Source: a virus
Strand: one strand, 5' to 3'
Length of the DNA stretch: 38,052 nt
Virus record (IMG/VR): IMGVR_UViG_3300048586_000277
Location: 1 to 38,052 of that record
Under the pieces are notes generated by a model. The model ran no database searches, was not told where the DNA came from, and worked only from the letters and a program-made list of their open reading frames with translations. The translations under genes were made by a program, and so were the position numbers. Every line of letters begins with the position of its first letter. Positions within the stretch are counted from its first letter, which is position 1. Shown piece by piece: positions 32,885 to 35,838 of this stretch.

Positions 32885-33844
32885 ATGGCTGAGAACACCA
32901 AGATCGAATGGGCCGACCACACCTTCAACCCTTGGACGGGGTGCCAGAAGGTCAGCCCCGGCTGCGATCACTGCTACGCCGAGGGCTGGTCGAAACGGTC
33001 GGGAGTTGTCGAATGGGGGCCACATGCCCCGCGCCGCCGAACCAGCCCGGCGAATTGGGCGCAACCGCTGAAATGGAACCGGCAGGCCAAGGCCGAAGGG
33101 CGCCGCGCCCGGGTGTTCTGCGCCAGCTTGGCCGATGTCTTCGACAACCATCCCTCGATCACCTCGGGCTGGCATGGCGATCTCTGGCACCTGATCGCGG
33201 CAACCCCGCATTTGGACTGGCTTTTGCTGACCAAGCGGCCGCAGAACATCATCAAGATGATGCCAGAAAGCTACGGGGCGCCCGCATGGGGCTACGGCTG
33301 GCCGAACGTCTGGCTTGGCACCACCGTCGAGAACCAGACCGAGGCCGACCGCCGCATTCCGGTCCTTCTGTCGATCCCCGCGAAGGTGCGGTTCCTTTCC
33401 TGCGAACCGCTTCTGGGGCCGCTAGATTTGACGCGCTGCGGGCGCAACGACCTTGGCTTGCGGGGCGACGCCTTACGTTGGCCTGGCTTCAGTGGCCCAT
33501 CTCGCAGCTTTGGCCACCGCATCGACTGGGTAATCTGCGGCGGCGAGAGCGGCCCGGGGGCGCGCCCGATGCATCCGGATTGGGCGCGGTCCCTGCGCGA
33601 TCAGTGCCAGGCCGCCGGGGTGCCGTTCCTGTTCAAGCAATGGGGGGAATGGGCGCCAGCGATTCACGATCCTGAGCATGGCGGGCACGTTCTTCGGCAG
33701 ACAGAGCCGGTCGGCAGCTTCGATAGCTGGAAGGCAAACGCCTTTGACCCGAACAGACTTGAAGGGATCAACTGGCGCCGCCTCGGCAAGAAAGCCGCCG
33801 GTCGCCATCTGGACGGCCGCACCTGGGACGAGGTGCCACGATGA
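32885..33844 (+). CDS. DUF5131 (phage Gp37/Gp68 family) protein
   Basis: The 319-residue protein opens IEWADHTFNPWTGCQKVSPG and CDHCYAEGWSKR. The motif C-x6-C-x2-CYA (Cys20, Cys27, Cys30) recalls radical-SAM-type iron-sulfur sites. LDWLLLTKRPQNI, VWLGTTVENQTEADRRI, RFLSCEPLLGPLDL and the final HLDGRTWDEVP are the standard blocks of the family, which is frequent in phages next to DNA-modification genes. Its biochemical activity is not established. The neighbouring methyltransferase suggests a link to modification or host evasion. Confidence 0.85.
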   Translation: MAENTKIEWADHTFNPWTGCQKVSPGCDHCYAEGWSKRSGVVEWGPHAPRRRTSPANWAQPLKWNRQAKAEGRRARVFCASLADVFDNHPSITSGWHGDLWHLIAATPHLDWLLLTKRPQNIIKMMPESYGAPAWGYGWPNVWLGTTVENQTEADRRIPVLLSIPAKVRFLSCEPLLGPLDLTRCGRNDLGLRGDALRWPGFSGPSRSFGHRIDWVICGGESGPGARPMHPDWARSLRDQCQAAGVPFLFKQWGEWAPAIHDPEHGGHVLRQTEPVGSFDSWKANAFDPNRLEGINWRRLGKKAAGRHLDGRTWDEVPR

Positions 33845-34035: not shown

Positions 34036-34279
34036 GCGCCTCGACCTGATCCTCTACACGGTGAACAGCCTGCACTCCGCAGCGATCACGCTGACCGAAT
34101 ACGCGAGAGAACTGCCGGCCGACCCAGAGGCCCGCCTCACCGACTTCGAGGATGTGCCAGAGCTGCTGGCCGAGAGCCTGGTCACTGCGCTCGAGGCGCT
34201 GCCCGATGATCGCCTCACCGAAGACCGCAGCCAACTGCTGGGTGCCCTGCGCCGGTATCTGGACGGGTGGACGGCATGA
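34028..34279 (+). CDS. Small phage protein upstream of the methyltransferase
   Basis: The 83-residue protein is acidic and helical: LDLILYTVNSLHSAAITLTEY, then DFEDVPELLAESLVTALEAL and a final LLGALRRYLDGWT. No family is recognised. It overlaps the RHH-like gene by 8 bp and the methyltransferase by 4 bp (ATGA), so it belongs to the same transcript. It may bind a neighbouring product. Nothing in the sequence indicates an activity. Confidence 0.55.
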   Translation: MPERLDLILYTVNSLHSAAITLTEYARELPADPEARLTDFEDVPELLAESLVTALEALPDDRLTEDRSQLLGALRRYLDGWTA

Positions 34280-35838
34280 CAGCCCCCATCCGATACCTCT
34301 CAGTCTGTTCCGGCATCGAGGCGGCAACGCAAGCGTGGCACCCGCTCGGCTGGCTGCCCGTCGCGTTCAGCGAGATCGAGCCGTTCCCGTCCTCCGTCCT
34401 CGCCCATCACTATCCGCATGTCCCGAATTGGGGCGACATGACCCGTTTCGAGGAGTGGCCCGATGCAGCAGTTGACCTTCTTTGCGGAGGAACCCCCTGC
34501 CAGGACTACTCTGTCGCCGGCCTCGGAGCTGGACTGGATGGCGCGCGTGGCGGCCTCATGCTCACCTATGGCGCTATTGCTCGCCGATATCGGCCCCGCT
34601 GGCTGGTCTGGGAGAACGTCCCCGGCGTCCTTTCGAACGATCGAGGACGAGCATTTGCAAGCCTTCTGGGCCTGCTCTCCGGGCGGCGCGTCGAAGTCCC
34701 CGCCGGAGGCTGGCAATCTGCGGGAGTTGTCGAGGGCATCCCGGGCGCATACGGCCTCGCATGGCGGGTGCTTGACGCTCAGTATGTGCGAACACGCCGC
34801 TTCCCATATGCTGTCCCCCAGCGACGGCGTCGTGTGTGGCTTGTCGGATATCTTGGAGACTGGCGACGTGCCGCGGCGGTTCTTTTTGACCGCGACGGCC
34901 TGTCGGGGAATCCTCCGCCGCGCCGGGAATCGGGGAAAGTCTCTCCCACCATCCCTGCTCGCAGCCTTGGAGGCGGTGGCCTCGGGACGGACTTCGATCT
35001 CGACGGCGGCTTGATCGCGAGTGAGACCGCCGCGACGATCGACGCTTCTTTCGGGCGGCTCCAAGGCGCTTCCGGGCAGGACGCAAATCATGGGCATTCG
35101 CACCTGGTCGCCTTCGACTGCAAGGGATCGCAGGTTCAGCATGACGAGTCTGGAGCTACGCCTACCCTTCGCGCCATGGGCCATGCCAACAGCCACGCGA
35201 ACGCGGGCGGCCAGCTAGCGGTGGCCCATGCGCTGCGCGCAGAGGGGTTCGACGCATCCGAGGACGGCACCGGGCGCGGGACGCCAATCACTCCTGTGCG
35301 GCACCCTATCGCCATCCAGGAGAGGGCTGTCAGCGAAAACCCCAATGCGGGGCCGGATGGAGCGGGTTTCCGGTCGGATGGTGCGGCCTACACGCTCGAG
35401 TCGCGGACTGTCTCCCAAGCGGTTGCCTTCGCCCAGAACCAGCGCGACGAGGTTCGGACGATGGAGGTGTCGGGTGCGCTCGCGGCAGAGCCTGGCATGA
35501 AGCAGCAAACCTATTTGGCGCTGCCTGATGTTGGGCTTGGCCACAATGGCGGGCCGCCGCTCTGGGAGGTTCGGCGCCTGACTCCGCGCGAGTGCGAGCG
35601 CCTGCAGGGATTCCCCGACGACTTCACCCGGATCCCGTGGGGCGCTCGCAAGCGCCTCGAGGCGCAGGAGCTGCTCTACATCCGGCTCACCAATCCCGAG
35701 CTGACCATGGACGAAGCGCGTCGCCTGGCCGCAGACGGCCCTCGCTACAAGGCACTCGGCAACTCCTGGGCGGTCAACTGCGCTGAATGGATCGGGGAAC
35801 GGATTGCAGCCCTTGAAGCAATGGAGATTGCGGCATGA
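34276..35838 (+). CDS. C5-cytosine DNA methyltransferase
   Basis: The start at MTAPIRYLSVCSGIEAAT overlaps the previous stop. The 520-residue protein has motif I (SVCSGIEAATQAWH), motif IV with the catalytic Cys75 (GGTPCQDYSVAG), motif VI (VWENVPGVL, 111-119) and motif VIII (PQRRRRVWLVGYLG, about 181-194). A long variable target-recognition insert follows, then motif IX (RLTPRECERLQGFPDDF) and motif X (YKALGNSWAV). No restriction enzyme is seen, so it is an orphan phage methylase, probably protecting DNA or imitating host modification. A second gene is embedded in its N-terminal half in another frame. Confidence 0.92.
   Translation: MTAPIRYLSVCSGIEAATQAWHPLGWLPVAFSEIEPFPSSVLAHHYPHVPNWGDMTRFEEWPDAAVDLLCGGTPCQDYSVAGLGAGLDGARGGLMLTYGAIARRYRPRWLVWENVPGVLSNDRGRAFASLLGLLSGRRVEVPAGGWQSAGVVEGIPGAYGLAWRVLDAQYVRTRRFPYAVPQRRRRVWLVGYLGDWRRAAAVLFDRDGLSGNPPPRRESGKVSPTIPARSLGGGGLGTDFDLDGGLIASETAATIDASFGRLQGASGQDANHGHSHLVAFDCKGSQVQHDESGATPTLRAMGHANSHANAGGQLAVAHALRAEGFDASEDGTGRGTPITPVRHPIAIQERAVSENPNAGPDGAGFRSDGAAYTLESRTVSQAVAFAQNQRDEVRTMEVSGALAAEPGMKQQTYLALPDVGLGHNGGPPLWEVRRLTPRECERLQGFPDDFTRIPWGARKRLEAQELLYIRLTNPELTMDEARRLAADGPRYKALGNSWAVNCAEWIGERIAALEAMEIAA
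34463..35014 (+). CDS. Overlapping gene embedded in the methyltransferase gene
   Basis: In the +1 frame relative to the methyltransferase, a 183-codon frame starts with ATG preceded by AGGAG at seven bases, a perfect ribosome-binding site inside coding DNA. The product begins MQQLTFFAEEPPARTTLSP. Its C-terminal part (VVCGLSDILETGDVPRRFFL, then ACRGILRRAGNRGKSLPPSL) is a pattern I recall from recurrent phage proteins encoded at methylase loci. The same DNA encodes catalytic motifs IV, VI and VIII of the methylase. Function is unknown. Both frames appear constrained. Confidence 0.7.
   Translation: MQQLTFFAEEPPARTTLSPASELDWMARVAASCSPMALLLADIGPAGWSGRTSPASFRTIEDEHLQAFWACSPGGASKSPPEAGNLRELSRASRAHTASHGGCLTLSMCEHAASHMLSPSDGVVCGLSDILETGDVPRRFFLTATACRGILRRAGNRGKSLPPSLLAALEAVASGRTSISTAA

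Follow-up and report, generated by a model that had tools for sequence, protein, structure and literature searches.

A widespread gene nested in the +1 reading frame of phage C5-cytosine DNA methyltransferase genes

Overprinting of the phiX174 type is the classical case of overlapping genes in phages. Among C5-cytosine DNA methyltransferases (C5-MTases), M.AquI is a natural two-polypeptide enzyme, and the gene for the small subunit of M.EcoHK31I shares its DNA with another reading frame. M.EcoHK31I is also a two-polypeptide C5-MTase, in which the small subunit supplies catalytic motif IX (PMC3404938). The methylase genes of some mycobacteriophages are known to carry ShiLan-type insertions, i.e., a hidden, out-of-frame HNH endonuclease (PMC11855218). 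The viral MTase gene analyzed here bears some likeness to each of these. As in M.EcoHK31I, one C5-MTase locus gives rise to two proteins, although this is a loose precedent only; as in ShiLan, a protein is hidden out of frame within a phage methylase gene; and as in the phiX174 type, a same-strand, fully nested gene is under dual constraint. ShiLan is a mobile HNH insertion, whereas the gene described here is widespread and, rather than being inserted, shares the DNA of the native catalytic core. Unlike the phiX174 type, it is shared by phages infecting at least five bacterial phyla and lies within the catalytic domain of an enzyme. Overlapping genes are a known kind, but neither this nested family nor its location in phage MTases seems to have been described previously.

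The window, i.e., the whole 38,052-nt stretch of DNA that was analyzed, is a 38 kb virus record encoding tail, head, and portal proteins, a terminase, a primase, and an integrase. Its MTase gene begins at an ATG sharing bases with the stop codon of the upstream gene (ATGA), and the product scores 113.8 bits against PF00145 (cut-off 22), placing it among the C5-cytosine MTases. The MTase frame carries the PCQ, ENV, and QRRRRV motifs as well as motif IX (RRLTPRECERLQGFP), and the first three all fall within the DNA shared with the nested ORF, just as the first-pass annotation had stated. The 183-codon frame, AGGAG, and 7-base spacing given in that annotation were likewise confirmed in the sequence (Table 1). 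Because the MTase frame contains the catalytic motifs, including motif IX, such MTases are expected, on their sequence, to be catalytically complete alone. A two-subunit MTase of the M.EcoHK31I kind was rejected because motif IX lies in the MTase frame here, and the nested protein shows no C5-MTase match and no MTase motifs. A ShiLan-type HNH insertion was also rejected as the identity of the nested gene: no HNH match (Pfam) was found in 103 members of the family, and the overlap spans native MTase motifs.

Table 1. Features of the MTase locus and of the gene nested within it (positions in the window).
Feature	Position	Strand	Evidence
C5-cytosine DNA methyltransferase (MTase), host gene of the overlap	34276..35838	+	PF00145 E=1.4e-32; TIGR00675 dcm E=2.5e-32; phrog_116 E=3.6e-75
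Nested gene, +1 frame of MTase, 183 aa, ATG start	34463..35014	+	Same frame and product in all relatives checked; synonymous-resampling z=18.7
Predicted Shine-Dalgarno (SD) AGGAG of nested gene, within MTase codons for E-E-W	34451..34455	+	7 bases before ATG; SD-like match common among relatives
+1-frame TGA stop just upstream of nested start, from MTase ATG ACC	34439..34441	+	Sequence; +1 frame open from 34442
Nested protein, N-terminal two thirds, over MTase motifs PCQ and ENV	34463..34838	+	pLDDT 39-72; codon-identity ratio about 1.35-1.5
Nested protein, C-terminal core, residues 127-175, LSDILETGDVPRRFFLTATACRGILRRAGNRGKSLPPSLLAALEAVAS; predicted compact three-helix domain, basic RRAxxRGK	34841..34987	+	Invariant residues; pLDDT 92-97 in best blocks; codon ratio 2.31 and flipped codon-position pattern (34825-34970)

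Long open frames were expected to arise commonly by chance at such a GC content, and this proved to be so: the +1 frame stays open in 15.5% of synonymous-codon resamples of the window MTase, with codons drawn from the non-overlapping part of the same gene. Because about 15% of resamples leave the frame open, its length alone is no evidence, and the case rests on relatives. Multiplied over genes, the probabilities of an open frame give 1e-121, but the genes are related, so this product was not taken as a probability. A spurious frame, arising only because the MTase protein is conserved and its codon use is GC-rich, is compatible with the proportion of open resamples and with the nested N-terminal GRTSPAS, which is the +1 reading of the MTase ENVPG motif. 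However, when each MTase protein was kept intact and the nested-profile score was recomputed after synonymous resampling of 66 non-redundant genes, the nested product was destroyed in every one; the mean score fell from 217 to 56 bits, and 66/66 real genes exceeded all of their own resamples. The window product scores 268 bits against the family profile, compared to a resample mean of 64 and maximum of 86 (z=18.7), with further z values of 8.3 in P1, 15.8 in Dove, 12.4 in Javan191, and 15.2 in NatCom_11578, and the lowest in pST (3.8) and CcrSC (3.5). The nested gene is also present in Streptococcus phages and P1, which are not GC-rich. Together with the codon-position pattern, which flips in the core, and generic C5-MTases, which lack the nested product (both below), resampling refutes a spurious frame for the proteobacterial-type family, and we consider this explanation scarcely credible.

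We then relied on an independent set of viral MTases, fetched solely by the C-terminal 84 residues and therefore free of selection by the nested frame, although a few loci (same contigs) are shared with the first set. The profile built from the first set found the product in the +1 frame of 75/75 independent MTases (E<1e-39) and in no other frame, and in all 74 that have a continuous MTase frame, an open +1 stretch of 119 codons or more lies at the same position. The stops inside profile matches were mainly due to alignments overrunning ORF ends, with the main stretch open in each continuous gene; stops in this frame among close methylase homologues, named beforehand as a finding that would count against the gene, were thus absent. 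The nested profile gave no match to ~16 ordinary chromosomal alphaproteobacterial C5-MTases (L275-L286, L290-L295), and the nested product is thus not forced by being a C5-MTase. The impression that both proteins look real held up at the level of sequence: the MTase matches PF00145, and the nested product beats its synonymous resamples and is present in all 75 independent MTases.

Selection on the two frames was assessed by codon identity, using the 66 non-redundant genes of the independent set, the first ratios having come from loci chosen by their nested frame. Relative to expectation, codon identity at conserved MTase residues was 1.16 upstream of the overlap and 1.17 downstream of it; within the overlap, it went from 1.35 and then 1.52 in the first parts to 2.31 in 34825-34970. 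In this segment, 36% of pairs differ at the MTase wobble base and 48% at the first base, compared to 61-63% and 35-40%, respectively, outside the overlap; since the +1 wobble base is the MTase first base, this pattern is a +1-frame signature. Identity across 34870-34970 is highest in the +1 frame (0.57), ahead of the MTase frame (0.36) and the +2, or third, frame (0.32). Between P1 and a Salmonella P1-like plasmid dmt, MTase-synonymous changes occur in 4/52 core codons vs 197/575 outside the overlap (p=3e-5). The synonymous-variation check proposed for the methylase therefore returned a strong fall precisely over the overlap. When the window is compared with distant phages, identity is 39-61% for the nested core, 31-50% for whole MTases, and 29-42% for the MTase residues read from the same DNA.

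Codon constraint alone cannot tell a constraint on DNA or RNA (structure or a regulatory site) from one on protein. However, the +1-frame wobble base is the most variable core position, as protein coding predicts, the start, SD, and stop of the nested gene are conserved, and the core residues persist between MTases of such low overall identity, making a nucleic-acid constraint exceedingly improbable. At the level of sequence, these comparisons demonstrate selection on the nested amino-acid sequence across phages of several bacterial phyla. The sequence marks of an overlapping gene are found here, i.e., a conserved open frame, lowered host synonymous variation with a second-frame pattern, and a start signal of its own, and 34463-35014 is almost certainly a genuine protein-coding gene nested in the MTase +1 frame. 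It offers a clean case of dual coding, in that the conserved nested core coincides with a poorly conserved part of the MTase that separates motif VIII from the target-recognition region.

An SD-like match occurs 4-12 nt before the nested start in 78/130 relatives vs 8.8% at control positions. The nested ATG is kept in two registers, three bases apart, corresponding to MTase D-A (GATGCA) or D-[YH]-A (TATGCA/CATGCA), and the lysine, glutamine, or glutamate codon preceding the SD ends in G in 18/19 cases. The start signal at 34463, which had been put forward as a point on which the gene could fail, is thus predicted by an SD and ATG conserved among relatives. Ribosomes would start the nested gene independently at the embedded AGGAG-ATG on the MTase mRNA, and every MTase transcript would therefore also yield the nested protein (150-190 aa). 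Alternatively, programmed frameshifting or slippage out of the MTase frame might be the main route into the +1 frame and would supply a different C-terminus, as could be read from the Faecalibacterium phage FP_Toutatis, where the core shares its frame with the N-terminal half of the MTase, beside a G run of another length in phage Lelie. This is very unlikely, given the conserved independent ATG and SD, the stop codon that most loci have in the +1 frame shortly before the start, and the exceptional nature of Toutatis, with its circularly permuted MTase.

By tblastn, the nested product was found in 106 phage records, and a consensus query raised this number to 213. We checked that it lies in the +1 frame of the annotated MTase gene in P1 (dmt), Pan4, DMCA, CRP-821, Dove, Chantilly, VpaJT_1, CobraSix, Javan191, NatCom phages, Rctr41k, NV1.1.1, Lucky2013, BL94, MM1, pST, zjk6, CcrSC, and vB_BhaS-171. 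The arrangement is identical in all IMG/VR loci compared (L011-L090), with overlaps of 450-760 bases. Hosts of phages with the nested gene include Proteobacteria, Actinobacteria, Firmicutes, Cyanobacteria, and Akkermansia. In bacterial genomes, the copy lies inside an MTase in 80/80 loci (alpha-, beta-, gamma-, and deltaproteobacteria, Acidobacteria, Verrucomicrobia, Planctomycetes, Kiritimatiellae, and others), with no stand-alone or differently fused copy among these 80 and no stand-alone copy among the phage copies examined. The product is also encoded on a Bifidobacterium longum plasmid, and a P1-like dmt matching the nested segment is present in 493/5,426 complete E. coli genomes (9%).

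Several loci depart from the usual arrangement. In the Mycobacterium phage Dove (L005, 2248-3366), the MTase is split between two annotated ORFs, the first of which contains the nested gene. In the Mycobacterium phages Schatzie and KashFlow (L182, L183), the MTase is interrupted by an insertion resembling the published ShiLan HNH, and the core persists in an ORF of 82 codons that seems to resemble the 81-aa protein of Mycobacterium phage Thibault met in the fold search below; as this ORF retains the core despite the MTase interruption, the core may have a value of its own. In FP_Toutatis (L006, 2114-3534) and the Faecalibacterium phage Lelie (L175, 1740-3034), the MTase appears circularly permuted, with motif I after the C-terminal motifs. 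The G-run length differs between the two, the N-terminal MTase half being in frame with the nested core only in Toutatis; phase variation or slippage, or a sequencing difference, are candidate explanations.

The host gene is a phage orphan C5-MTase gene, and the nested family is broad, old, and practically unannotated. A recurring phage family at methylase loci, put forward in the first-pass annotation, was borne out by the phage relatives found by tblastn and by PHROG_16143, which matches 78/103 relatives (best 2.6e-13; the window protein alone gives E=0.045, over its C-terminal part only). PHROG_16143 groups related proteins as DNA methyltransferase, a misnomer. No separate nested gene was annotated among the matches listed for the 493 E. 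coli genomes with a P1-like dmt. The annotated exceptions found are ORF14 of the Streptococcus pneumoniae phage MM1 (MM1p15, NP_150146.1) and a 'methyltransferase' of the S. thermophilus phage pST, each a second, nested CDS. Both are homologous and located at the same place in the +1 frame of a C5-MTase, but are not DNA methyltransferases by sequence, despite their name, and lack the last two core helices; we found no description of their place in a conserved family in the open-access papers searched. Nor did we find a description of the nested gene in the open-access literature, though one may exist in subscription papers. Gene finders retain one of two overlapping frames, which is why a conserved protein family was overlooked in hundreds of phages, including P1.

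The nested proteins are mostly 120-200 residues long. In the structure model of the window protein, the N-terminal two thirds are mostly of low confidence or disordered, and residues 127-175 form a predicted three-helix unit, most of which is modelled with confidence (block pLDDT up to 97), with invariant residues L127, L131, E132, L142, A146, C147, R153, L161, P162, and L165. The small, basic C-terminal domain would be the working part and the N-terminal part mostly flexible. Pfam, NCBIfam, and PADLOC scans of the protein and 103 relatives assigned no family; a HTH_psq match was rejected (E=0.022, below cut-off, one member only). Profile searches of PDB sequences and Foldseek of the full model gave no PDB match, the best viral Foldseek match being the Thibault protein (E=0.014), and Foldseek and VIA-align of the core alone gave no significant match.

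As for function, it is plausible, if a little short of probable, that the nested protein cooperates with the MTase or targets it, as a partner or inhibitor affecting activity, specificity, or timing, or as a regulator binding its DNA or mRNA; coding and MTase-linked action taken jointly stand at about an even chance. The 80/80 bacterial and all examined phage copies are nested in MTases, and ordinary chromosomal C5-MTases lack the product, but this linkage is weak evidence of joint function because nesting itself holds both genes together. In KashFlow, Schatzie, and Dove, the MTase frame is interrupted or split and the nested core persists, which could mean independence. A product acting independently of the MTase, in counter-defence against type IV (McrBC-like, 5mC-dependent) restriction or another host-takeover function, would fit with the persistence of the core where the MTase frame is rearranged, its basic and compact nature, and the confinement of the gene to 5mC MTase genes of phages and prophages, given that a 5mC-methylating phage would expose itself to type IV restriction. 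This is rather unlikely, however: there is no similarity to a known anti-restriction or defence family, with only isolated weak PADLOC matches among 103 members and none for the window protein, in a resource that covers defence rather than counter-defence. We favour MTase-linked action as the first choice, with the independent role second.

Tentatively, orphan phage C5-MTases may be two-protein systems in one DNA stretch, in which the nested protein controls the MTase or shields 5mC-marked DNA from type IV restriction. If true, a co-cloned, unrecognized protein would account for part of the phenotypes attributed to MTase genes of this kind, P1 dmt among them. Cloned or deleted MTases of this type carried or lost the second protein, and the methylation and anti-restriction phenotypes therefore need re-reading.

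We also noted some features of these loci apart from the nested gene. Two P1-like plasmid dmt genes, L302 (NZ_CP027223.1) and L303 (NZ_JBTRIA010000004.1), have an in-frame insertion at the MTase catalytic PC(Q) motif, with an intein-like N-terminal block (FTAGHMVLCKNGYKPIENVCPGDYVVSHLGRL) and, later, TNDHPFL; the upstream dmt part in L302 is annotated as an incomplete MTase pseudogene. The window MTase also matches phrog_864, named DNA primase, over positions 653-955 of 1064 (E=2e-78), which suggests primase-MTase fusions or a mixed family. Upstream of the MTase lies a DUF5131 (Gp37/Gp68-like) protein (32885-33844; PF07505, E=2.5e-93), which also weakly matches radical SAM mobile pair protein A.
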